Origin: Candidatus Omnitrophota bacterium | GTDB lineage: Bacteria; Omnitrophota; Gorgyraeia; Gygaellales; Profunditerraquicolaceae | Assembly: GCA_026387435.1 (NCBI GenBank) | Contig: JAPLLS010000091.1 | Span: 1-40,837 of the forward strand | Direction: 5' to 3' | DNA length: 40,837 nt | Part shown: in pieces, positions 6,615-29,988 of the stretch | Layout of the letters: every line of letters starts with the position of its first letter | Position numbering within the stretch: the first letter of the stretch is position 1 | Notes under the pieces: model-generated | What the model saw: the letters and a program-made list of their open reading frames with translations, nothing else | Database searches by the model: none | What the model was told of the DNA's origin: nothing | Translations under genes and position numbers: made by a program

Positions 6615-6642
6615 TTGACAATGGGGAATTCGATGGTATACT
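6615..6642 (+). promoter_or_regulatory. Sigma-70-type promoter for nadE
   Basis: TTGACA (6615-6620), a 16-base spacer and TATACT (6637-6642) make a near-consensus housekeeping promoter. Transcription should start near 6649. That leaves a leader of about 135 bases before nadE, which contains two terminator-type hairpins. Confidence 0.8.
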
Positions 6643-6669
6643 TTTTAATGTAATACAACGAAGTAAGCT

Positions 6670-6710
6670 GAACATTGACGTTCGCCAAAAGCGGACGTTT
6701 TCTCTTTTAT
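6670..6710 (+). promoter_or_regulatory. Leader hairpins of nadE: six-base-loop hairpin overlapping terminator 1
   Basis: GAAC (6670-6673) and GTTC (6680-6683) enclose the loop ATTGAC, with A at loop position 1 and G at position 4. The same bases are needed for a second hairpin: GACGTTCGC (6677-6685) with GCGGACGTT (6691-6699), loop CAAAA, then a T-rich TTCTCTTTT. The two folds are mutually exclusive, as in an antiterminator/terminator switch. Confidence 0.5.
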
Positions 6711-6720
6711 AAGGATAATG

Positions 6721-6768
6721 GCGTCCTGGATTACATCAGTGATTGATGTGTCTGTAGGGCGCTTTTTT
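6721..6768 (+). terminator. Attenuator terminator 2 in the nadE leader
   Basis: GCGTCCT (6721-6727) pairs with AGGGCGC (6756-6762), with an inner ACATCA/TGATGT stem, followed by six T residues (6763-6768). It lies only 17 bases before the nadE ATG and downstream of its promoter, so it must be read through for expression. GGACG at 6693-6697 could pair with CGTCC at 6722-6726 as an antiterminator. Confidence 0.65.
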
Positions 6769-6785
6769 ATTTTTGGGGCAATAAA

Positions 6786-8480
6786 ATGGCAAAATTCAGT
6801 ATTCGCGTAGCTTGCAGTCAGATAAATTCCTTGGTCGGGGACCTTCAGGCCAACAAGGATAAGCTCCTGGGGGCGATCGAGATCGCCCGGGCCCAGGCAG
6901 TGGATATTATCTGTTTTCCTGAATTGGCGCTGGTGGGGTATCCTCCGGAAGATCTGCTGTTCAAGCCTAAATTCATCGAGGATAACCTGAAGAAACTCGA
7001 AGATTTAGCGGTTGCGGTCAAGGATATTATCGCCATAGTCGGTTTCGTGGAGAGATCAGGAATAGATATTTATAATGCCGCGGCAATAATCGCTGACGGC
7101 GAGGTTAAGGCCGTTTGCCGCAAGATGCTTTTGCCGAATTATGGGGTTTTTGACGAGAAACGCTATTTTAAAGCCGGGAATAAACCGCTTGTTTTTGTCC
7201 TGAAAGGCAAAAAAAGGCAGGTTAGTTTAGGGGTGAATATCTGCGAAGATATCTGGGGTAAGTTCGGCCCGCTCAAATTCCAGGCCGGATCAGGAGTAGA
7301 GCTGGTTTTTACCATTAACGCCTCGCCGTTTCACGCCGGCAAGATCCGGGAGCGGGAAGCGCTGATCCGCCAGCAGGCTAAAACTTATCATACTGCCATC
7401 GCTTACATTAACCTGGTCGGCGGACAGGATGAACTGGTTTTTGACGGACAGAGCATGATCGTGGACGCTAAAGGGAAGATTTTAAAGCGCGGACAGGCTT
7501 TTTCCGAGGACCTATTGATCGAAGATATCGAGGTAGGCAGTTTTGACAAGAAAATCCCCAAAGGAACAATAATAATCCAGGGGGACTTTGACGGCAAGCC
7601 TAAAGATCCGCTGGCTAAAAGAAGCTTAAAGCCTTTAGCTGAGATCGAGGAGATCTACCAGGCCCTGGTGTTGGGAGTTAAGGATTATGTTTTTAAAAAC
7701 GACTTCAAAAAAGTAGTCATCGGTTTGAGCGGCGGGATCGATTCCAGCCTGGTCGCCAGCCTGGCAGTGGACGCTTTAGGAAGGGATAATGTGGTCGGAG
7801 TGTTCATGCCCTCGCGGTATTCCTCCAAGGATTCCGAAACCGACGCCGCGGTCCTGGCCGGAAACCTGGGTATTGAGTTCAAGAGCGTTTCTATCGAGCA
7901 TATTTACAAGATGTATAATTTATTTCTGGAATCGCATTTTATCGGTTGTAACCGGGATATTACCGAGGAAAACATTCAGGCCCGGATCCGGGGAAATTTG
8001 TTGATGGCCTTCTCGAATAAATTCGGCTGGTTGGTTTTGACTACCGGGAATAAATCCGAGATGAGCACCGGCTACTGCACGCTTTACGGGGACATGGCCG
8101 GAGGTTTCGCGGTGATCAAAGACGTGCCCAAGACCCTGGTGTATAAACTTTGCCGTTGGCGCAATTCGCTTAAAGATATGATCCCCGAACGGGTGTTCAC
8201 CAAAGCGCCGACCGCGGAACTGCGGCCGAACCAGAAAGATTCCGACACGCTTCCGGAGTATGAAGTTTTGGACCCCATTCTTAAGGCTTATGTTGAGGAT
8301 AACCGATCAATTGCCGAGATAGTCAAAATGGGATTTGAGGAAAAAGTGGTTTCTAAAGTCGCGGGATTAGTGGATAGAAGCGAATACAAACGCAGGCAGT
8401 CACCGCCGGGAATAAAAATTACCCCGAGGGCTTTCGGAAGAGACCGGAGAATGCCAATCACCAATAAGTACAGAGGATAG
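6786..8480 (+). CDS. nadE: Glutamine-dependent NAD+ synthetase
   Basis: NadE makes NAD+ from deamido-NAD+ with ATP, taking ammonia from glutamine. The N-terminal nitrilase-type glutaminase domain (about residues 5-265) shows the Glu-Lys-Cys triad: Glu46 (CFPELAL), Lys113 (CRKMLLPNYG) and Cys153 (GVNICEDIW). The C-terminal synthetase domain (about 285-564) has the PP-loop SGGIDSS at 315-321 and the TTGNKSE segment. The 564-residue length is normal for the two-domain enzyme. It is preceded by its own promoter and an attenuated leader, and it is followed after 3 bases by a sigma-like gene. Its glutamine use links it to the nitrogen genes downstream. Confidence 0.95.
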   Translation: MAKFSIRVACSQINSLVGDLQANKDKLLGAIEIARAQAVDIICFPELALVGYPPEDLLFKPKFIEDNLKKLEDLAVAVKDIIAIVGFVERSGIDIYNAAAIIADGEVKAVCRKMLLPNYGVFDEKRYFKAGNKPLVFVLKGKKRQVSLGVNICEDIWGKFGPLKFQAGSGVELVFTINASPFHAGKIREREALIRQQAKTYHTAIAYINLVGGQDELVFDGQSMIVDAKGKILKRGQAFSEDLLIEDIEVGSFDKKIPKGTIIIQGDFDGKPKDPLAKRSLKPLAEIEEIYQALVLGVKDYVFKNDFKKVVIGLSGGIDSSLVASLAVDALGRDNVVGVFMPSRYSSKDSETDAAVLAGNLGIEFKSVSIEHIYKMYNLFLESHFIGCNRDITEENIQARIRGNLLMAFSNKFGWLVLTTGNKSEMSTGYCTLYGDMAGGFAVIKDVPKTLVYKLCRWRNSLKDMIPERVFTKAPTAELRPNQKDSDTLPEYEVLDPILKAYVEDNRSIAEIVKMGFEEKVVSKVAGLVDRSEYKRRQSPPGIKITPRAFGRDRRMPITNKYRG

Positions 8481-9015: not shown

Positions 9016-9055
9016 GGTTACCAGACAGCGGGTTTTCTTACTTGTAGTAATGTAG
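9016..9055 (+). promoter_or_regulatory. Candidate alternative-sigma promoter, GGTTACC-N17-ACTTGTA (porin-glnK-amt unit)
   Basis: GGTTACCAGA at 9016-9025 and ACTTGTA at 9040-9046 are followed by ATGTAG at 9050-9055. The same three blocks occur with exactly the same spacing upstream of glnN (21502-21541), with about 28 of 40 positions identical. The 17-base gap between GGTTACC and ACTTGTA is what is expected for -35 and -10 boxes. Neither box matches the sigma-70 consensus. Confidence 0.5.
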
Positions 9056-9065
9056 GTCGAGTAAA

Positions 9066-9108
9066 ACACAGAGATGTGTCTAGGAATGTTTCAAAACGCA
9101 AAGGCGTT
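9066..9108 (+). promoter_or_regulatory. Leader hairpins of the porin-glnK-amt unit (possible antiterminators)
   Basis: The first hairpin is ACAC (9066-9069), loop AGAGAT, GTGT (9076-9079). The loop has A at position 1 and G at position 4. The second hairpin is AACGC (9095-9099) with GCGTT (9104-9108), which uses bases needed for the 5' arm of terminator 1 and so would prevent it. A third competing hairpin, TTAAGACG/CGTCTTAA, lies at 9136-9155. Confidence 0.45.
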
Positions 9109-9137
9109 CTCCTAAAGAGCACGCCGTTTTCATTTTT
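9103..9137 (+). terminator. Attenuator terminator 1 before the porin gene
   Basis: GGCGT (9103-9107) pairs with ACGCC (9121-9125), and CTC (9109-9111) pairs with GAG (9117-9119), with one mismatch between and loop CTAAA. The T-rich GTTTTCATTTTT (9126-9137) follows. It sits between the putative promoter and the first gene. Confidence 0.6.
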
Positions 9138-9145
9138 AAGACGTA

Positions 9146-9189
9146 GGCGTCTTAATATCCAGTGGGTGGATGTTAAGGCGCCTTTTCAT
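9146..9189 (+). terminator. Attenuator terminator 2 before the porin gene
   Basis: Bases 9146-9161 pair with 9167-9182 in a 16-pair stem (two or three G-T wobbles) around the loop GTGGG, followed by TTTTCATTT. The 5' arm overlaps the hairpin TTAAGACG-TAGG-CGTCTTAA (9136-9155), which is mutually exclusive with it. It ends 17 bases before the GTG start at 9207. Confidence 0.7.
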
Positions 9190-9206
9190 TTAAAAGGGAG
9201 GAGAAA

Positions 9207-19937: not shown

Positions 19938-20558
19938 ATGCGAATAACCCTGGCCGCGACCAAAACTAATTTATTGAATGTGAAAAAATCCCTCGCTCTC
20001 ACCCAGGAAGGCTACAATCTTCTGGATGAAAAGCGCAGGATCCTGCTCGAAGAGCTTTCGGCGATCATCGACAGCGTTGACAGTTATCAGGAACAGACCG
20101 ACCTGGCCCTGGCCGAGGCTTACCGCCTGGTCGACAAGGCTACCGTGGCTTTAGGCCGTAAACGCATGGAAGAGCTGAGTTTTTCCGTGGACATCAAAAG
20201 CGAAATGGCTATTTCCCAGCGCCGGATCATGGGAGTGGGAGTTCCGATCATCAATCTCAGCGTCCAGGAAAATCCTCCTTATTACAGCCTGCACGAGGTC
20301 AATCTTAACGTCGATGAAGCGATCGCCAAATTCCGGGATATCTTAAAACTGCTGGCGGCCTTGGCGGAAAAAAAGATCACTTTGATGCGCCTGGCCCAAG
20401 AGGCCCAGAAAACCATCCGCAAGGTCAAAGCCCTGGAGAAAATTTACCTTCCTTATTACAAGGAAGCCTTTAAATATATCGGAGACCGGCTGGATGAGGA
20501 ATCGCGCGATTCTTTCGCCCTGCTTAAACTTATCAAAAAAGAGAAGCTCAGGCAATGA
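19938..20558 (+). CDS. ntpD: V/A-type ATPase central shaft subunit D
   Basis: This 206-residue subunit forms the rotating coiled-coil axle inside the A3B3 head. The N-terminal TKTNLLNVKKSLALTQEGYNLLDEKRRIL is the typical long helix, and the C-terminal helix (TIRKVKALEKIYLPYYK) pairs with it. It overlaps the following universal stress protein by 4 bases, showing that the two downstream genes belong to the same operon. Confidence 0.95.
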   Translation: MRITLAATKTNLLNVKKSLALTQEGYNLLDEKRRILLEELSAIIDSVDSYQEQTDLALAEAYRLVDKATVALGRKRMEELSFSVDIKSEMAISQRRIMGVGVPIINLSVQENPPYYSLHEVNLNVDEAIAKFRDILKLLAALAEKKITLMRLAQEAQKTIRKVKALEKIYLPYYKEAFKYIGDRLDEESRDSFALLKLIKKEKLRQ

Positions 20559-21034
20559 TAAAAAACATTCTGGTCTCGGTTTCAGGATCCCCGGACTCTT
20601 TGATGGCGGCAAAATACGCTATCTGCCTGGCCAGGGTCATGCAGACCAAACTATTCATAGTTTACGTCATCGATTCCAAAGTTCTCTGCGAGCTTTTGAA
20701 GAGCAGGATCTTTGTCGAGGCGGAAGCCAGGAGTTACGAACGAGACCTTAATCAGCAGGGGGAAGTGTTTTTGGCCAGGGCCAAGAAGATGGCGGAATCG
20801 AAGAGGGTGGCCTGCGAAACTTTCCTGCTTAAAGGTTCCGTGAGCGACGAAGTGATCGCCAAGATCAATGAGGTGGGAGCCGATATACTGGTCATGGGGG
20901 AAATGAAAGAGCTGTCTTCCCGCAGCGCGATTTTTTACGACGAAGGGGAGAGGATCTTTCGCAAATCTCCTTGTTCGGTGGTTATGGTTAAAAATCATGC
21001 GATGGTGGAGAACTTATACAAGGAGATGGAATAA
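20555..21034 (+). CDS. Universal stress protein family (UspA-like)
   Basis: This 159-residue alpha/beta Usp-fold protein begins ILVSVSGSPDSLMAAKYAICLA, the standard strand-loop-helix of the family, with VDIDS-like turns replaced by VIDSK. The usual ATP-binding G-x2-G-x9-G-[ST] motif is not clear (ILVMGEMKELSSRSAIF ... SPCSVVMVK), so it may be a non-ATP-binding member. It overlaps subunit D and lies 2 bases before the IIA gene. Cotranscription with the ATPase suggests it tunes energy metabolism, which is inference. Confidence 0.82.
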   Translation: MIKNILVSVSGSPDSLMAAKYAICLARVMQTKLFIVYVIDSKVLCELLKSRIFVEAEARSYERDLNQQGEVFLARAKKMAESKRVACETFLLKGSVSDEVIAKINEVGADILVMGEMKELSSRSAIFYDEGERIFRKSPCSVVMVKNHAMVENLYKEME

Positions 21035-21036
21035 AC

Positions 21037-21495
21037 ATGAAATTAACGGACTTTCTGCGGCCTGAATTTTGTGTGGTGGACCTTAAAGCCAACAATAAAG
21101 AGGCTGCGATCAGAGAACTCGCTTCGGTATTGTTGCCTTCGGGTAAGGTCAATAACAAAGAGGATTTTATCAAGCACATCATGGAGCGCGAACGCCTGGG
21201 TTCCACGGGTATCGGTAACCGGGTAGCTATCCCGCACGCCCCGACCCAATCAGTCAACGATTTAGTGGTCGCTTTCGGCCGTAGCGTCAACGGGATTGAT
21301 TTTCAATCCTTAGACGGCGACGAAGTGAACTTGATATTCCTGCTGGGGACCAATCCCGATAACCTGGGTATTTATCTTAAGTTTTTAGCCGGTCTTTCCA
21401 GGCTTTTGAATAACCGTCAGTTCCGGGAAGAATTCATGGCCGCAAATTCTCCGGCGGCGATCATCGAGGTTTTAAAGAAACACGAAAAAAGCTAA
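21037..21495 (+). CDS. PTS IIA-like (PtsN/fructose-mannitol type) regulatory protein
   Basis: This 152-residue domain is of the PTS EIIA type 2 fold. The phosphorylatable histidine is visible in STGIGNRVAIPHAPT (about residue 68), a strong match to the G-x-G-x-A-[IL]-P-H signature. No sugar permease is nearby, so a regulatory role like PtsN (IIA-Ntr), which links nitrogen/carbon status to ion transport, is more likely than sugar uptake. It is the last gene of the ATPase operon. The terminal stop is 6 bases before the glnN promoter-like element. Confidence 0.87.
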   Translation: MKLTDFLRPEFCVVDLKANNKEAAIRELASVLLPSGKVNNKEDFIKHIMERERLGSTGIGNRVAIPHAPTQSVNDLVVAFGRSVNGIDFQSLDGDEVNLIFLLGTNPDNLGIYLKFLAGLSRLLNNRQFREEFMAANSPAAIIEVLKKHEKS

Positions 21496-21501
21496 AATTT
21501 C

Positions 21502-21541
21502 GGTTACCAGAATACCCCGGTTTTTACTTGTATAGATGTAG
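21502..21541 (+). promoter_or_regulatory. Candidate alternative-sigma promoter of glnN, GGTTACC-N17-ACTTGTA
   Basis: GGTTACCAGA (21502-21511), ACTTGTA (21526-21532) and ATGTAG (21536-21541) repeat the element found at 9016-9055 with identical spacing. It is the only visible promoter-like signal between the ATPase operon and glnN. Confidence 0.5.
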
Positions 21542-21560: not shown

Positions 21561-21610
21561 GGCACATTGATGTGCCAAAGACATTTAAAGATAAGAACAG
21601 GGGTGTTCTT
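21561..21610 (+). promoter_or_regulatory. Two-hairpin ANTAR-type RNA motif in the glnN leader
   Basis: Hairpin 1 is GGCAC (21561-21565), loop ATTGAT, GTGCC (21572-21576). Hairpin 2 is AAGAAC (21593-21598), loop AGGGGT, GTTCTT (21605-21610). Both have perfect stems and six-base loops with A at position 1 and G at position 4. This is the pattern established for RNA targets of ANTAR antiterminators. Hairpin 2 shares bases with the terminator that follows, so the two are exclusive. Confidence 0.55.
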
Positions 21611-21645
21611 CTCGCTAAAAGTGAGGAACACCCCGTATTATTTAT
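21600..21645 (+). terminator. Attenuator terminator before glnN
   Basis: GGGGTGTTC (21600-21608) pairs with GAACACCCC (21626-21634), continued inward by CTCGC/GTGAG with a TT bulge and loop TAAAA. The downstream tract GTATTATTTATT is T-rich but interrupted. The stem ends 14 bases before the Shine-Dalgarno of glnN. Confidence 0.6.
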
Positions 21646-21658
21646 TAAGGAGGAAGCA

Positions 21659-23851
21659 ATGGGAATAAGAAAAGAGGTTTTATTCAAAATCAAGCCGGTT
21701 GATCTGGCCAATAAAACGAAATTCAAGAAAGTCTCGGAATATTTCGGAGAAAATACTTTTAACGCCGGGGCCATGAAGAAGGTCCTTTCCCAGGGAACTT
21801 TCAGCGCGTTCAACCGCTGGCTTTCCGAGGGTAAAGTGATCACCCTGGAACAGGCTAACGAGATCGCGACAGCCATGAAGAACTGGGCGATCGCTAAAGG
21901 GGCTTCTTACTACACCCATTGGTTCCAACCCATGACCGGGCTTACCGCCGAAAAACACGATAGTTTCATCTCTTTTATTGGCCCGGGTAAAGTCATCGAG
22001 AAATTTTCCGGCTCCAAACTGATCCAGGGAGAGCCTGACGCTTCCAGTTTCCCTTCGGGAGGGGTCCGCTCTACTTTTGAAGCCCGCGGTTATACTGCTT
22101 GGGACCCGTCCAGCCCGGCTTTTATCATTGAAAGCAAGCTGGGCAAGACTTTATGCATCCCGACCATCTTTGTTTCTTACCACGGAGAAGCCCTGGATAA
22201 GAAACTGCCTCTTTTGCGCTCCGACGACGCTTTGAACCGTTCGGCCTTGAACCTGCTGCATCTTTTCGGCCACAAGGGCGTCAAAAAAGTATTTTCGACC
22301 TGCGGCCCGGAACAGGAATATTTCCTGATCGACAAAAATTATTATAATCTCCGCCAGGACCTGGTGATGACCGGAAGGACTCTGGTCGGCGCGCCTTCTC
22401 CCAAGGGGCAGCAGATGGAAGACCAGTATTTCGGCTCGATCAAAGAACGGGTGATCAATTTCATGTTCGAAGTCGCCGAAGAAGCTTATAAGCTGGGAAT
22501 TCCGGTGATGACCCGGCATAACGAAGTCGCGCCCCATCAATACGAGTTCGCGCCGATCTTTGAAGAATCGAACCTGGCCGCCGACCACAACCAGCTTTTA
22601 ATGGAGCTGATGAAAAAGATCGCGCTTCGCCATGACATGGTCTGTCTTCTGCATGAAAAGCCGTTTGCCGGGATCAACGGAAGCGGCAAGCATGTAAACT
22701 GGTCTTTATCTGACGACCAGGGCAACAACCTGCTTAATCCCGGACAAACTCCGGAGCAGAATTTGCAGTTCTTGGCGGTTCTGGTCGCGGTCCTGCGCGC
22801 GGTTTACAAGCATTCCGATCTTTTACGGGCAGCTGTGGCTCATTCCGGCAACGAACACCGCCTGGGAGCCAATGAAGCTCCTCCGGCGATCATGAGCGTA
22901 TTCCTGGGAGAACAGCTAACCAAGATCCTGGGAATGCTAGAAAATGGCGTCAAGGCATCGGGATCCAAGCAGGGAGTCATCGATCTGGGGATCGGCAAGC
23001 TGCCTAAGTTCAATCAAGATACCACCGACAGGAACCGGACTTCGCCTTTCGCTTTTACCGGCAACAAATTCGAGTTCCGCGCCGTTGGATCTTCGCAGAA
23101 CATATCCACCCCGATCATGATCATCAATACCATTATCGCCGAATCCCTGGATTACGTGGCCGAGAAGATCAAGGCCGCTTCCCGGGGGAAAGATTTCAAT
23201 GCCGCGGTCCTGAAAGTAGTATCAGAGGTCGCCAAAGAAACCAAGGATATCCGTTTCGAAGGTAACAACTATTCCCAAGAATGGCTTAAAGAAGCCAAGA
23301 AAAGAAAACTGCCTAATGTCGCCTCTACCGCGGAAGCGCTCAAGGCTCTGACCAAGAAAGAGAATATCGAACTTTTCGAGAAATACAAGGTTCTTTCCAA
23401 AGAAGAGATAGTTTCCCGCTACCATATCTGGGTGGAAATGTACTGCAAGCTTATCGAGATCGAAGCGAACACCCTTAATGAAATGGTCAATTCCAGCGTG
23501 GTCCCTCCGGGGTTGGAATACGAGGAGCTGGTCGCGGACAACCTGACCAAGATCATCGCCCTGAAGAAGCAGACCGGATTAAAACTGGAAGCTAAAGCTA
23601 TCGAAGACCGCAAAGCTCATTTAAGCGGCGTGGTTTCGATAATCTATTACGTGCGCCATAATACCCGCGAGATGATGGAGCTCATGCATAAATCCGAGCA
23701 TTTGAGCCCGGAAAAAAAGGCCGAGCTTTTTTTCGAAAAGATCAAACCTTACATGGAACATATCCGTAAGCACGTGGACGCGCTGGAATGCGTTGTCTCC
23801 GACGAGCACTGGGATCTGCCTAAGTACAGAGAGATGCTTTTTATCAAATAA
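21659..23851 (+). CDS. glnN: Glutamine synthetase type III
   Basis: GlnN makes glutamine from glutamate, ammonia and ATP. The 730-residue length is diagnostic for the large type III enzyme, as types I and II are about 350-470. Recognised segments include HWFQPMTG, GPEQEYFLID, RHNEVAPHQYEFAPIFE, INGSGKHVNWSL, and EFRAVGSSQN. The start at 21659 is chosen for AAGGAGG (21648-21654). The frame stays open through the leader, but no start there has a ribosome site. It has its own leader with an attenuator. A hairpin terminator follows the stop, after which come the regulator and gltB. The T-loop-deviant PII proteins are plausible partners. Confidence 0.96.
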   Translation: MGIRKEVLFKIKPVDLANKTKFKKVSEYFGENTFNAGAMKKVLSQGTFSAFNRWLSEGKVITLEQANEIATAMKNWAIAKGASYYTHWFQPMTGLTAEKHDSFISFIGPGKVIEKFSGSKLIQGEPDASSFPSGGVRSTFEARGYTAWDPSSPAFIIESKLGKTLCIPTIFVSYHGEALDKKLPLLRSDDALNRSALNLLHLFGHKGVKKVFSTCGPEQEYFLIDKNYYNLRQDLVMTGRTLVGAPSPKGQQMEDQYFGSIKERVINFMFEVAEEAYKLGIPVMTRHNEVAPHQYEFAPIFEESNLAADHNQLLMELMKKIALRHDMVCLLHEKPFAGINGSGKHVNWSLSDDQGNNLLNPGQTPEQNLQFLAVLVAVLRAVYKHSDLLRAAVAHSGNEHRLGANEAPPAIMSVFLGEQLTKILGMLENGVKASGSKQGVIDLGIGKLPKFNQDTTDRNRTSPFAFTGNKFEFRAVGSSQNISTPIMIINTIIAESLDYVAEKIKAASRGKDFNAAVLKVVSEVAKETKDIRFEGNNYSQEWLKEAKKRKLPNVASTAEALKALTKKENIELFEKYKVLSKEEIVSRYHIWVEMYCKLIEIEANTLNEMVNSSVVPPGLEYEELVADNLTKIIALKKQTGLKLEAKAIEDRKAHLSGVVSIIYYVRHNTREMMELMHKSEHLSPEKKAELFFEKIKPYMEHIRKHVDALECVVSDEHWDLPKYREMLFIK

Positions 23852-23860
23852 ATTCCCATC

Positions 23861-23900
23861 CTTGAGGCTCGCGGGCGTTTGCCCGCGGGCTTAAGTTTTT
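23861..23900 (+). terminator. Intrinsic terminator after glnN
   Basis: A GC-rich stem of about 15 pairs (23861-23876 with 23881-23895, one bulge) has the loop GTTT and is followed by TTTTT (23896-23900). It separates glnN from the Fis-type gene. Confidence 0.8.
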
Positions 23901-23929
23901 CAACCCCCACGCTAAATTCAATGACGAAT

Positions 23930-24274
23930 ATGGCTAGAAAAAGAATTATGGTTTTTGTTGCCCAGGACGAAGAAAAGGTCAAAAAAATAATCTCCGAAAT
24001 GCTCTCCAAAGAGGATTCAGTCGATGACCTTCATTCTTTGCAGGAGCGGGTAGTCGAGCTGGGAGAGGAGATATTCCGCCAGAAAAGGGGGACCGTATAT
24101 AAAACGGTTCTAGAGATCATCGAAAAACCGCTGATCGAGCAGGCTTTGGCCAGGACCGAGGGCAACCAGTTCCGGGCCGCGCGGATCTTAGGGATCAACC
24201 GGAACACGATCAGGGCAAAAATAAAGAAATTAGGAATCGACATCGGCAAATGGAAGGTTTACTACAATGATTAG
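23930..24274 (+). CDS. Small Fis/NtrC-type helix-turn-helix DNA-binding protein
   Basis: This is a protein of about 114 residues with the Fis-like C-terminal domain: ALARTEGNQFRAARILGINRNTIRAKIKKLGI is the classical NtrC/Fis helix-turn-helix, preceded by a helical dimerisation region. No receiver or AAA+ domain is present, so it is a stand-alone Fis-like regulator and not a sigma-54 activator. The start is uncertain: ATG at 23921, 23930 or 23949 are all possible and none has a clear Shine-Dalgarno. It overlaps gltB by 8 bases, so it probably regulates nitrogen assimilation or local DNA architecture. Confidence 0.75.
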   Translation: MARKRIMVFVAQDEEKVKKIISEMLSKEDSVDDLHSLQERVVELGEEIFRQKRGTVYKTVLEIIEKPLIEQALARTEGNQFRAARILGINRNTIRAKIKKLGIDIGKWKVYYND

Positions 24275-27200
24275 ACCGGATTTACCAGATCAACTTGGGC
24301 TTTACGATTCCCGTTTCGAGCATGATTCCTGCGGAGTGGGGTTCGTCTGCCACGTCAAAGGCCAACAATCGCACGACATCGTGGCCCAGGGGCTGGAAAT
24401 TTTAAGAAGGCTCTCTCACCGCGGAGCGACCGGAGCTGATCCCAAGACCGGAGACGGGGCAGGAGTGTTGATCCAGATACCTCACGAATTCCTGGTCGAG
24501 AAATGCCTCAAAGAGGGGATCCAGCTGCCTGTACCCGGAAAATACGGGATTGGCCTGGTATTTTTGCCCAAGGATTCCAAGGAAAGGCGCTTCTGCAAGG
24601 ATGCTTTTGCCAGGTTTATCCGGGCCGAGGGCCAGGAGCTTTTAGGCTGGAGAAAAGTTCCTGTCGACGACTCGGATATCGGCCATACCGCCAAAGCCAC
24701 CCAGCCAATGATCGAGCAGGTTTTCATTAAATTCCGGCCGGAGGCGGTCCAGAAGGAAGAAGACCGCCAGATCTGGGACAATCTTTATTTTGAACGTAAG
24801 CTTTATTTGATCAGAAAACAAGTCGAGAATTACGTCCATAAGAGTAAGTTAAAACAGGGCCAGGTTTTCTACATTACCAACCTTTCTTCCCGGACACTTT
24901 CTTATAAAGGGCTTTTAATGCCCCATCAACTGGAAAATTATTTCCCGGACTTAAAAGAAGCCTCTTTTAAAAGCGCGATCTGCCTGGCCCATTCCCGCTA
25001 TTCCACGAACACATTCCCGACCTGGAACCTGGCTCAGCCATTCAGGTTCCTCGCCCATAACGGCGAGATCAATACTTTGCGCGGAAATATCAAGTGGATG
25101 CAGGCCCGGGAAGGGCTTTTGCAAAGCAAGCTTTTCGGGAAAGACATCAAGAAATTAAAACCGGTCATCGTTGCCGGAGGAAGCGATTCCGCGGCCCTGG
25201 ATAACATTCTGGAGCTATTGCTGCTGACCGGCCGGCCGATGGCCCACGCGATGATGATGCTGGTTCCTTCGGCCTGGGAGCAGTCCACGGCCATGGGAGA
25301 CAAGCTGCGCAATTTTTACAAATTCCATTCCTGTTTAATGGAGCCCTGGGACGGCCCGGCAGCCATCGCATTTACCGACGGAGTCCGGGTGGGAGCGATG
25401 CTTGACCGCAACGGACTGCGGCCGTGCCGCTATCTTCTGACCAAGGATGACCGGGTGGTCATGGCTTCCGAGGTGGGGGTGCTGGATATCCCTCCTGAAG
25501 AGATCATGGCTTCGGGAAGGCTGGAGCCGGGCAAATTCTTTTTCGTCAATACCGAAGTCGGCCGGATCATCGAAGACCGGGAACTCAAGGAAATAATCTC
25601 CGGCAGGCAGCCGTACCAGGCCTGGGTCGAAGAGAATATGATCAGCCTCAAAGATCTGCCGCATGTCGAACTCAAGAAAAATCGTGACCCGCAAATAATT
25701 ACTCATCTGCGCGCTTTTGGTTATACCCGGGAAGATCTGAAAGTGATCATCAAGCCGATGATCGAGACCTCCCAGGAGCCGGTGGGAGCGATGGGTAATG
25801 ATACCCCTCATGCGGTCCTCTCCAACCGGCCGCAACTGGTTTACGCTTATTTTAAACAGCTTTTTGCCCAGGTCACCAACCCGGCCATCGACCCGATCCG
25901 CGAGGAGCTGGTCATGTCTTTGACCACTTACCTGGGGCCGGAAAAGAACTTGCTTGCGGAATCTCCGGGACACTGCCATAAATTATTCGTTAAAAACCCG
26001 ATCTTGACCGATGACGACCTGGCTAGGATCGAGGGGATCAAGTTGAATTCTTTCCGGACCAAGGTTATATCGCTTCTTTTTTCGTCCAAAGAAAAAGACG
26101 ATCTTTCCCGTAAATTAGACAAGATCTGCCGGGAAGCAGCTTCAGCCATAAAAGAAGGCTATACCTTTATCGTTTTAAGCGACCGGGGCTGCGACAAGAA
26201 ACACGCGGCCATCCCCGCGCTTTTAGCCTGCGGGGCAGTGCATCATTTCCTGGTGGAAAGCGCTTCGCGGACCCAGATCGGTTTGATCGTGGAAAGCGCG
26301 GAACCACGGGAAGTGCATCATTTTGCTTTGCTTTTCGGTTTTGGCGCGGATTGCATCAATCCTTACCTGGCATTTGAAGCCATCAAGCTGATCCTGGAAG
26401 AAGAAAATTCCCAGACTAGCCTGGAAGACGGAGTTCATCATTATATCAAGGCCGTAAATAAAGGGATCATGAAGATCCTTTCCAAAATGGGGATCTCAAC
26501 TCTGCAGAGTTACCGCGGGGCCCAGATCTTCGAAGCTTTAGGCCTGGACAAATCGGTGATCGACCGCTGTTTCCGGGGCACGGTTTCCCGGATCGGAGGG
26601 GCTGACCTGGATGTGCTGGCCGAAGAAACTCTGCAGCGCCATCAAGAGGCTTTCCAGTTGCGCCAGAGCTTAGGAGAAAATCTTCCCACCGGCGGATTAT
26701 ACCAGTGGAAAAAAGACGGAGAATTCCATCTCTGGAATCCGGAAAGTATTTCGGCTTTGCAGGAGGCCGCGCGCAAAAACGATCTTCGCAAATACCAGGA
26801 ATTCTCCAGGTTGATCAATGACCAGTCCAAGAATCCTGCCACCCTGCGCAGCCTTTTTAAATTCAAAAAAGTAGTTACTCCCATAGATATCAAGGAAGTC
26901 GAGCCCCTGGAAAACATTATCAAGCGCTTCTGCACCGGAGCGATGAGCTTCGGCTCCATTAGCGGCGCCGCTCACCGGACCATGGCTCTGGCCATGAACC
27001 GTTTAGGAGGAAAATCCAATACCGGAGAAGGAGGGGAAGACCCGACCCGTTTCGTTAAACTGGCAAACGGAGAAAGTTTCCGCTCGGCGATCAAGCAGGT
27101 CGCGTCGGGCCGCTTCGGGGTGACCACCAATTATTTGGTTAATGCCGACGAACTGCAGATCAAGATCGCTCAGGGCGCCAAGCCCGGAGAAGGCGGCCAG

Positions 27201-28826
27201 CTTCCCGGACACAAGGTCAGTGTCGTCATTGCCAAGACCCGTTATACCACGCCGGGAGTGACTTTGATCTCGCCTCCGCCGCACCATGATATTTATTCCA
27301 TCGAGGACCTGGCCCAGCTTATTTTCGACCTCAAGAACGTCAATCCTAAAGCCCGGATCAGCGTGAAACTGGTTTCCGAAATCGGAGTTGGCACGATCGC
27401 CGCCGGAGTGGCCAAAGGCCACGCGGACATGATCCTTATCTCCGGAGGCGACGGAGGCACCGGCGCTTCTCCCTGGAGTTCGATCAAACATGCCGGACTG
27501 CCCTGGGAGCTGGGGCTTTCCGAAACTCATCAGACCCTGGTCCTCAACGATTTAAGGAGCCGGGTCAGGCTGCAGACCGACGGCCAGCTGCGCACCGGAC
27601 GGGATGTGGCTATTGCCGCGCTTTTAGGCGCCGAGGAATTCGGTTTTGCTTCCGCGGTGCTGGTAACATTAGGTTGCGTGATGCTGCGCCACTGCAACCT
27701 GAATAACTGTTCTTTAGGCGTGGCGACCCAGGATGAATTACTGGAGCACCGTTTTTGCGGCAAAGCCGAATATATAGAAAATTATTTCCGTTTTGTAATC
27801 GAGGAACTTAGGCAGATCATGGCTTCTTTAGGGATGCGCAGCGTCGACGAGATGGTCGGAAAAACCGAGTTTCTGGAGCTCAACAAAGCAATCCTTCCTT
27901 GGAAAGCTAAAGGTTTGGATCTTTCCCGGATCCTTTACAAACCGAAGGTGGCCAAGGAAGTAGGAACGCATAATACCATTGCTCAAGACCATGCCATCGA
28001 AGATGTGTTGGACCGGCAATTAATAAAGCTTAGCCTCCCGGCATTCGAGAAGAACCAGAGCGTTAAGATCGAGATGGGGATCAAGAATTCCAACCGTTCG
28101 ACCGGGGCCATGTTAAGCGGAGAAGTTTGTAAAGCTTTCGGAGAATCCGGGCTAAACGAAGATACCATATTTTGTAAATTCAAAGGGTATGCCGGCCAGA
28201 GTTTTGGCGGCTTCCTGGCTCCGGGAGTGACCTTTGAACTGGAAGGCATGGCTAATGATTATGTGGGCAAGGGGATCTCCGGGGGCAAGATCATAGTTTA
28301 TCCGGATAAAGAAGTCACTTATACCATGCGGGAAAATATCATTATCGGCAATACCGCTTTTTACGGAGCGATCTCCGGCGAGGCTTATATCCGCGGCCGG
28401 GCAGGCGAGAGGTTCGGTATCCGCAATTCCGGGCTTTACGCGGTGGTCGAAGGCTTGGGCGATCATGGCTGCGAGTACATGACCGGCGGCCGGGTCATGG
28501 TTTTGGGCCGCACCGGAAGGAATTTTGCCGCCGGGATGTCCGGAGGCATCTCCTATGTTTATGACCGGGAAGGAAATTTCAAATACCGCTGCAATTTCGA
28601 CATGGTCGATTTAGAGAAGCTTAATGACGAAGATATCTCGATGGTCAAGAAGCTGGTTTCTAACCACTATAAATATACTCAAAGCTTGATAGCTAAGAGA
28701 ATACTGGATAATTTTTCCAACGAGATCAAAGATTTTATCAAAGTAATGCCTTTTGAATATAAAAAGATCCTGGAACAGAAAAAACTGGATAAAAGTTTCT
28801 CTCTGGGAGAGGATACCGAAGGATAA
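24267..28826 (+). CDS. gltB: Glutamate synthase large subunit (NADPH-GOGAT alpha)
   Basis: GltB converts glutamine and 2-oxoglutarate to two glutamates. The 1519-residue protein is complete. The N-terminal Ntn glutaminase domain has its nucleophile at Cys22 (HDSCGVGF) after a short propeptide. A central domain is followed by the FMN/synthase domain (STGEGGEDP, GQLPGHKV, SGGDGGTGASPW). The [3Fe-4S] cysteines are Cys1137, Cys1143 and Cys1148 (CX5CX4C). The C-terminal GXGXG beta-helix spans about 1270-1480. It overlaps the Fis-like gene and is 3 bases ahead of gltD. The partner subunit gltD is damaged (see next entry), so electron supply to this enzyme is in question. Confidence 0.97.
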   Translation: MIRPDLPDQLGLYDSRFEHDSCGVGFVCHVKGQQSHDIVAQGLEILRRLSHRGATGADPKTGDGAGVLIQIPHEFLVEKCLKEGIQLPVPGKYGIGLVFLPKDSKERRFCKDAFARFIRAEGQELLGWRKVPVDDSDIGHTAKATQPMIEQVFIKFRPEAVQKEEDRQIWDNLYFERKLYLIRKQVENYVHKSKLKQGQVFYITNLSSRTLSYKGLLMPHQLENYFPDLKEASFKSAICLAHSRYSTNTFPTWNLAQPFRFLAHNGEINTLRGNIKWMQAREGLLQSKLFGKDIKKLKPVIVAGGSDSAALDNILELLLLTGRPMAHAMMMLVPSAWEQSTAMGDKLRNFYKFHSCLMEPWDGPAAIAFTDGVRVGAMLDRNGLRPCRYLLTKDDRVVMASEVGVLDIPPEEIMASGRLEPGKFFFVNTEVGRIIEDRELKEIISGRQPYQAWVEENMISLKDLPHVELKKNRDPQIITHLRAFGYTREDLKVIIKPMIETSQEPVGAMGNDTPHAVLSNRPQLVYAYFKQLFAQVTNPAIDPIREELVMSLTTYLGPEKNLLAESPGHCHKLFVKNPILTDDDLARIEGIKLNSFRTKVISLLFSSKEKDDLSRKLDKICREAASAIKEGYTFIVLSDRGCDKKHAAIPALLACGAVHHFLVESASRTQIGLIVESAEPREVHHFALLFGFGADCINPYLAFEAIKLILEEENSQTSLEDGVHHYIKAVNKGIMKILSKMGISTLQSYRGAQIFEALGLDKSVIDRCFRGTVSRIGGADLDVLAEETLQRHQEAFQLRQSLGENLPTGGLYQWKKDGEFHLWNPESISALQEAARKNDLRKYQEFSRLINDQSKNPATLRSLFKFKKVVTPIDIKEVEPLENIIKRFCTGAMSFGSISGAAHRTMALAMNRLGGKSNTGEGGEDPTRFVKLANGESFRSAIKQVASGRFGVTTNYLVNADELQIKIAQGAKPGEGGQLPGHKVSVVIAKTRYTTPGVTLISPPPHHDIYSIEDLAQLIFDLKNVNPKARISVKLVSEIGVGTIAAGVAKGHADMILISGGDGGTGASPWSSIKHAGLPWELGLSETHQTLVLNDLRSRVRLQTDGQLRTGRDVAIAALLGAEEFGFASAVLVTLGCVMLRHCNLNNCSLGVATQDELLEHRFCGKAEYIENYFRFVIEELRQIMASLGMRSVDEMVGKTEFLELNKAILPWKAKGLDLSRILYKPKVAKEVGTHNTIAQDHAIEDVLDRQLIKLSLPAFEKNQSVKIEMGIKNSNRSTGAMLSGEVCKAFGESGLNEDTIFCKFKGYAGQSFGGFLAPGVTFELEGMANDYVGKGISGGKIIVYPDKEVTYTMRENIIIGNTAFYGAISGEAYIRGRAGERFGIRNSGLYAVVEGLGDHGCEYMTGGRVMVLGRTGRNFAAGMSGGISYVYDREGNFKYRCNFDMVDLEKLNDEDISMVKKLVSNHYKYTQSLIAKRILDNFSNEIKDFIKVMPFEYKKILEQKKLDKSFSLGEDTEG

Positions 28827-28829
28827 AAT

Positions 28830-29988
28830 ATGGGAGATCCCAAAGGTTTTCTAAATTTGAAAAGGGTTACCGTGGAATACCGCCCGGTTTGCGAGCGGGT
28901 CAAGGATTACAAGCATGTCGTTGCTTTGAGGACGGATTCCAAATCCCAGGAGCAGGCCTCCCGGTGCATGGATTGCGGCACGCCGTTCTGCCACTGGGCC
29001 TGCCCGATCGGAAATTATATCCCGGAGTGGAATGACCTGGTTTTTCACGGACATTGGGTTCAGGCTCTGGAGCTGCTGGCTGTCACCAATAACCTGCCGG
29101 AAGTGACCGGCAGGGTCTGTTCGGCTCTTTGCGAATACTCCTGCGTCCTGGGGATCAACGACGACCCGGTGACTTGCCGGGAAAACGAGTTGAGCATCGT
29201 CGAATACGGGTTCAAGAACAAGCTGATCGTTTTTAGGGCCCATAAGAAACGCACCGGCAAAACCGTGGCGGTGATCGGCTCCGGTCCTTCGGGACTTGCT
29301 GCGGCTGACCAGCTTAATCAAGCCGGCCATAAGGTCATGGTTTTTGAGCGCGACGAGAAGATCGGCGGGATCCTGCGTTTCGGCATTCCCGATTTTAAAT
29401 TGGAAAAGAATATTCTGGATAGAAGGGTCAATATCTGGGAGCAGGAAGGTATCGTCTTTAAACCCGGGATAAATGCGGGCAAAGATTATCCGGCGCAGAA
29501 ACTCCTGGAAAAATTCGATGCTGTTGTCCTTTGCGGAGGCAGCCGTATGCCCCGGGACCTGAAGATCGAAGGCAGGAATTTAGCGGGGATCCATTTTGCC
29601 ATGGATTATTTGATGCAATCGAACCGCAGGGTCAACGGAGAAAAGTTCTCCTCGGACAAGCTTATTGACGCCAAGGACAAAAGGCTGCCAGCAGATGAAA
29701 GAGGTTCCTGGTTCGGATTTTACCATTCCCGCGGACATGGTGATCATTGCCGCCGGATTTCTGCATCCGGAACATTCCGGCTTGCTGGAAGATCTTAAGG
29801 TGGAATTCGATCCGCGCGGCAACGTCAAGACCAATGCCGATTATTTGACTTCTGTTCCTAAAGTTTTTTCTGCCGGAGACATGCGCCGGGGACAGTCTTT
29901 GGTGGTTTGGGCGATATCCGAAGGCCGCAGAGCAGCTCACGCGGTGGATAAATATCTGATGGGAGAATCCACTCTTCCTTTAATTTAG
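28830..29988 (+). pseudogene. gltD: Glutamate synthase small subunit, internally deleted and frameshifted
   Basis: Residues 1-284 in the first frame are normal GltD: cluster cysteines (CMDCGTPFCHWACP, RVCSALCEYSC), the FAD motif VIGSGPSGLAAADQL, and [13 protein letters not shown]. After DAKDK (to 29681) the frame becomes wrong. The correct C-terminus ([26 protein letters not shown] to [12 protein letters not shown]) resumes in another frame at about 29683. Compared with the usual 470-490 residues, about 100 are missing, including the second Rossmann motif GGGDTGxDC that binds NADPH. The missing length must be 3n+2 bases. This could be a true deletion or an assembly collapse. The N-terminal reading frame would end at 29798. 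Confidence 0.88.

Follow-up and report, generated by a model that had tools for sequence, protein, structure and literature searches.

A predicted ANTAR-responsive attenuator in the glnN leader of an Omnitrophota bacterium

The leader of glnN, the gene for a type III glutamine synthetase (GSIII), most likely acts as an ANTAR-responsive transcription attenuator for the operon glnN-HTH-gltB-gltD; on the sequence evidence we put the probability of this reading at roughly 0.9. The initial annotation had read the leader as a two-hairpin ANTAR antitermination switch, and that reading is supported, having survived the two tests proposed with it, on the presence of an ANTAR protein in the genome and on the loops of related leaders. 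The analysis covers the anatomy of the leader and its exclusive folds, their conservation and covariation in relatives, the presence and linkage of ANTAR genes, and the RNA-contact residues of the encoded protein.

Anatomy and folding of the glnN leader

The window, i.e., the whole stretch of DNA that was analyzed (40,837 nucleotides, contig C42), belongs to a metagenome assembly of 1.78 Mb that is 95% complete, and its GlnN has its nearest named relatives in Candidatus Omnitrophota. The window is a nitrogen cluster, with glutamine-dependent NAD synthetase, glnK-amtB-glnK, glnN-gltBD, asparagine synthase, CTP synthase, carA and carB. The glnN leader is separated from the V-type ATPase genes by two genes (20555-21495), one for a universal stress protein and one of PTS EIIA type. 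Downstream of the leader the operon order is glnN–HTH–gltB–gltD, and the glnN ATG is at 21659, which corrects an earlier note. The features are as follows.

21503..21532, + strand: promoter-like element GTTACC-N16-TACTTGTA, common to the glnK-amtB leader and many relatives' leaders
21561..21576, + strand: P1 hairpin GGCAC[ATTGAT]GTGCC, hexaloop with A at position 1 and G at position 4 (A1/G4), perfect 5-bp stem (direct reading; relatives; covariation of helix 1)
21577..21592, + strand: P1-P2 linker, 16 nt (direct reading; 8-25 nt in relatives)
21593..21610, + strand: P2 (putative antiterminator) hairpin AAGAAC[AGGGGT]GTTCTT, A1/G4 hexaloop, 6-bp stem
21600..21634, + strand: terminator-like hairpin GGGGTGTTC...GAACACCCC, 5' arm common to the P2 loop and 3' arm (-21.5 kcal/mol alone)
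21635..21646, + strand: tail GTATTATTTATT, moderately U-rich, poorer than in relatives (direct reading)
21647..21653, + strand: ribosome binding site AAGGAGG, outside the 21600-21634 hairpin (direct reading)
21659..23851, + strand: glnN, GSIII, 730 aa (GSIII_N, 246 bits)
23879..24274, + strand: small Fis-type HTH protein, between glnN and gltB (PF02954; relatives with the same gene order)
24267..28826, + strand: gltB, glutamate synthase large subunit
28830..29798, + strand: gltD-like, glutamate synthase small subunit, 322-aa frame

The two perfect-stem hairpins with loops ATTGAT and AGGGGT, both A1 and G4, are present in the sequence as first described. For P2 the hairpin and loop stand, but its stem of 6 bp is longer than had been implied; both stems exceed the 3-bp minimum for the ANTAR dual-hexaloop class. 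The claim that P2 supplies the 5' arm of the terminator holds for 21600-21608, the overlap of its loop and 3' arm with the terminator-like hairpin, but A21599 of the loop falls outside the 9-bp arm. Because both folds need 21600-21608, P2 and the terminator are mutually exclusive; P1 can coexist with the terminator fold. Both hexaloops are closed by A-U and C-G pairs (AC[loop]GT), as in P1 of the Enterococcus faecalis eutP leader.

P1 and P2 alone have predicted free energies of -7.6 and -5.6 kcal/mol. The full leader favors the terminator (-36.5 vs -25.8 kcal/mol when P1 and P2 are pinned), as would be expected if P2 has to be held by a protein, and as a whole it is more stable than its shuffles (z -6.2). 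As a caveat, the folding model allows an A1-U6 pair in both loops, giving a tetraloop form. Chance rates were drawn from the window, the fetched loci and shuffles. The combination of two A1/G4 hexaloops and an overlapping hairpin was absent from all 5000 dinucleotide shuffles of the leader (two hexaloops in 1/5000), and no second case was found elsewhere in the window on either strand. A search of the genome with the degenerate pattern RACNNNGNYGTY was uninformative (376 matches, control 406).

A strict terminator scan did not report the 21600-21634 hairpin, which contains a 2-nt bulge and is followed by the moderately U-rich tail. Given this weak U-tract and a hairpin end only 12 nt before the Shine-Dalgarno sequence, ANTAR recognition might be the same with this copy acting on translation or mRNA stability instead of termination; ANTAR motifs near ribosome binding sites without terminators are noted by Ramesh et al. 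(2012; PMC3369931). We consider this improbable, as AAGGAGG lies outside the hairpin and nearly all relatives have clear U-tracts at the equivalent place.

Conservation of the leader and its link to ANTAR genes

Full-length GlnN proteins of other genomes of the family are at most 80% identical, so that conservation of the leader is not to be taken for granted. In several relatives, dual hexaloops and an overlapping terminator with a U-tail lie upstream of glnN; in many, such an element occupies the gap between glnN and the gene that follows it. A strict scan requiring the closing AC/GT pairs and G4 recovered dual hexaloops from 363 kb of Omnitrophota loci; in the GSIII loci of other phyla (737 kb) it had no match. 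Loss of the A1/G4 loops in relatives that keep the terminator would have counted against the ANTAR reading. The relatives retain both: G4 is strongly favored, G replaces A1 in some, and decay or loss of the attenuator is seen at a few glnN genes (L018 and L027, also L003, L019 and L020), with a possible TATAAT-type promoter downstream.

In an alignment of 33 sequences, 6/12 pairs show changes on both sides, and the covariation score of 0.208 was matched by 0/500 shuffles and fell to 0.02-0.12 when the pairing was slid; covariation is modest, the inner four P2 pairs being nearly invariant. The set was chosen by a scan that imposed the closing pairs and G4, and their invariance in it is therefore no evidence. 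A test free of this loop bias used alternative hairpins that overlap the 5' arm of 934 terminator-like hairpins in Omnitrophota loci. For loops of 3-10 nt the counts were 128, 138, 108, 198, 90, 96, 75 and 90, a clear excess at 6 nt; G4 is present in 108 and A1 in 86 of the 198 six-base loops, G making up about a quarter at other positions.

A covariance model of P1 and P2 over related genomes, proposed as a check in the initial annotation, matched 65/108 genomes of the family (68 matches, mostly one per genome), and both stems covary. Most matches (54/68) are associated with glutamine synthetase genes: 43 lie beside GSIII, 11 of them upstream and 32 just downstream before the next gene, and 11 are upstream of GSI-like genes. 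The other 14, where examined, adjoin glnA (GSI by Pfam), gltB directly or via the HTH gene, amtB or an ANTAR gene, and include one partial leader upstream of a GSIII start. Locus L206 was too short for the Pfam scan and opens with the same glutamine synthetase reading frame. The P1-P2 element of the window, itself part of the training set, scores 46.1 bits. Model R1 applied to its own genome returned the glnN leader as the only significant match; the next (contig C48) is inside a coding region and was taken as chance.

The genome encodes exactly one ANTAR protein (67.5 bits against a cut-off of 27.3, E 1.6e-18). Its gene, L001:1468-2202 on the minus strand, is part of contig C43, away from the glnN leader, which agrees with the earlier remark that the window holds no ANTAR gene. 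The protein has 244 aa with a GAF and an ANTAR domain, and its AlphaFold model (mean pLDDT 88) shows the GAF domain, residues 154-204 as one long helix, and an ANTAR domain of three helices. RNA contacts were compared by alignment with EutV (6wsh), using the contact list of PMC8934654, whose numbering is the chain numbering minus 2. Six of the 11 EutV contacts are identical (Arg142, Lys143, Lys149, Tyr164, Met172, and Arg175), including Tyr164, which stacks on G4, and the loop plug Met172. Five are altered, Lys147 conservatively to Arg, and the others as Glu160->Ser, Arg168->Gln, Asn173->Asp and Arg177->Ser. A fold search returned many similar GAF domains with that of PtsP best, and NifA-like GAF domains were among the best sequence matches. 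The response of PtsP to glutamine and 2-oxoglutarate requires its GAF domain (PMC13104625); as GAF folds are generic, the match was judged insufficient for naming a ligand.

Across the family, the motif is present in 60/91 genomes with an ANTAR gene vs 5/17 without (Fisher p 0.007, kinship ignored, an optimistic value since the 108 genomes share ancestry and are not independent). The five with the motif and no detected ANTAR gene are G096 (L031), 92% complete, and the less complete G043, G080, G086, and G092. The ANTAR gene is within 10 kb of a glutamine synthetase gene on the same strand in 59/91 genomes, directly upstream of glnN in some (L004, L154, L157) and of nadE in others. Two GAF-ANTAR types are present in the family. 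The second is a paralogue found in many genomes (L112, L115, L116, L120, L122, L124, L129 and others), and its own [AAxGGC]-type hexaloop terminators nearby suggest a separate regulon.

The decayed leaders L018 and L027 and the possible second promoter downstream would speak for fixed attenuation, that is, a terminator with an unrelated 5' stabilizing hairpin and no ANTAR role. We regard this as very improbable in view of the 0/5000 shuffles, the bias in loop length and at G4, and the co-distribution and linkage with ANTAR genes. Least probable of all is another regulator or riboswitch, such as the Fis-type HTH protein of the operon (encoded there in relatives too), PII or a glutamine-sensing RNA: Fis-type HTH proteins are DNA binders, the hexaloop signature is that of ANTAR targets, and no Rfam family reached its gathering score in the whole window, the leader giving sub-threshold matches only at a relaxed threshold.

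Related leaders and the single-hexaloop form

Matches to the promoter-like element GTTACC-N16-TACTTGTA number two in the 1.78-Mb genome (9017-9046 and 21503-21532), both before ANTAR-type leaders in the window, and a reversed-pattern control had 0 matches in the genome. The element occurs at 88 sites of relatives, and a hexaloop-terminator follows at 64/88 by the criteria of the script.

Two other leaders in the window carry related elements. That of Gcw_chp-glnK-amtB-glnK (9017-9190) has the GTTACC...TACTTGTA promoter, a P1-like hairpin ACAC[AGAGAT]GTGT (9066-9079) and two terminator-like hairpins; no canonical P2 hexaloop was found in it. As only 4/30 amtB leaders of relatives pass a strict hexaloop-terminator filter, and several P2 stems have 2-3 bp, membership of amtB is weaker than that of glutamine synthetase. 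The nadE leader (6615-6775), upstream of the glutamine-dependent NAD synthetase gene (6786-8480), has two tandem hexaloop-terminators, both 3' of a consensus promoter TTGACA-N16-TATACT:

6670-6683: nadE leader hexaloop 1, GAAC[ATTGAC]GTTC
6713-6726: nadE leader hexaloop 2, GGAT[AATGGC]GTCC

At nadE loci of relatives a hexaloop overlaps a terminator in 11/28 cases; elsewhere nadE is directly 3' of the ANTAR gene.

A single A1/G4 hexaloop with a terminator closely precedes GSIII, GSI or glutamate synthase at L061, L073, L079, L081, L084-L087, L090, L092-L094, L100-L105 and other loci. These are from Firmicutes and one spirochaete, and many are immediately 3' of sigma-70-type promoters. At GSIII loci of these groups the P2 signature and terminator are just 3' of such a promoter, with no room for P1, and the P2 loops are mostly [AAxGGC], sometimes GAAC[AAAGGC]GTTC. 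In 69 GSIII loci from outside Omnitrophota, a U-tailed terminator overlaps an A1/G4 hexaloop in 31 cases; in 19/31 the end of a sigma-70-type -10 box lies 4-22 nt upstream, and just one has a possible P1. Control loops differing at position 1 or 4 gave 2-7 cases, none with a promoter; the control patterns A.G... and A...G. reach high scores, since G also stands at position 3 or 5 of the same loops. ANTAR proteins are encoded nearby in 5 non-Omnitrophota loci, and 3 of them also match a receiver domain weakly. At L073, glnA and an ANTAR gene are consecutive and GSIII diverges from them, with a hexaloop on each side. Some Omnitrophota glnN leaders are also single (L007, L008, L010, L013, L014, L026).

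We lean slightly toward a second architecture, in which one A1/G4 hexaloop that overlaps a terminator, and sits at the 5' end of the transcript or a few nucleotides from it, may suffice. ANTAR proteins would in this way control GSIII, GSI, glutamate synthase and related leaders of Firmicutes, as well as some glnN leaders of Omnitrophota, and the dual arrangement would be one of two natural forms. The reach of single hexaloops was left open in PMC8934654, where they are expected if no transcribing polymerase sets the pace. These leaders bear on a question of ANTAR antitermination, namely whether P1 is needed when P2 sits at the 5' end of the RNA.

Proposed mechanism and relation to known systems

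By default, the nascent RNA would fold into the 21600-21634 hairpin, giving an early stop before glnN-HTH-gltB-gltD. An active dimer of the single GAF-ANTAR protein would bind the A1/G4 hexaloops as they emerge, P1 and then P2. With P2 held, the terminator would lose its 5' arm, and transcription would continue into the glutamine synthetase and glutamate synthase genes. Such binding, termination and read-through are what we infer from the anatomy of the leader. As a guess, the GAF domain may sense the nitrogen state, e.g., glutamine or 2-oxoglutarate, alone or through PII.

Dual hairpins, A1/G4 loops and the overlap of P2 with the terminator define the ANTAR target class (PMC3369931, PMC3369936). 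Like the EutV leaders of E. faecalis (eutP, eutG, eutS, eutA; PMC3369931, structure in PMC8934654), the glnN leader has two short hairpins with A1/G4 hexaloops, and its P2 overlaps the 5' arm of the terminator. Unlike them, it precedes a GS-GOGAT operon, and its linker of 16 nt (within the 8-25 nt of relatives) exceeds the 5-12 nt of the eut leaders, in which a linker lengthened to 14 nt reduced induction (PMC3369931). EutV is a phosphorylated receiver-ANTAR protein with a kinase, whereas the regulator here would be a GAF-ANTAR protein encoded away from its target. The NasR/nasF leader (PMC3369936) likewise combines A1/G4 loops, nitrogen assimilation genes and antitermination, but with a NIT input domain and a nitrate signal, in Klebsiella.

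The initial annotation knew of no assigned ANTAR case involving type III glutamine synthetase; taken as a claim of novelty, this goes too far. Ramesh et al. (2012; PMC3369931) predicted glutamine and glutamate synthases, PII and ammonium transporters as ANTAR targets, leaving the type of glutamine synthetase unstated in the main text, and nitrogen-gene ANTAR regulons in Desulfotomaculum and Pelobacter; GAF-ANTAR proteins are called uncharacterized there. For the GS-GOGAT cluster of Clostridium thermocellum, an ANTAR antiterminator was proposed by analogy with NitR (PMC4676874, which cites NitR-type regulation of glnA in Clostridium). These predicted regulons and NitR resemble our case in that genes for glutamine/glutamate synthase and ammonium transport go with an ANTAR motif or protein; they differ in coming from other phyla with the type of glutamine synthetase unstated, Omnitrophota being outside the papers found. 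Our literature search found no paper on ANTAR control in Omnitrophota or naming GSIII, and the supplementary tables of Ramesh et al. (2012) may list GSIII cases. Since glutamine synthetase is already listed among ANTAR targets, the glnN leader is not of a new kind. As far as sequence can tell, it belongs to the known EutV/NasR class, and what is new is the phylum and the GAF-type regulator.

With this leader, a nitrogen-control circuit that is concrete and testable becomes available for an uncultured phylum, and GAF-ANTAR proteins would be tied to definite RNA targets. On the sequence evidence, ANTAR-type control of GSIII appears to extend to at least two phyla. The ANTAR switch is very probably how Omnitrophota of this family control ammonia assimilation.
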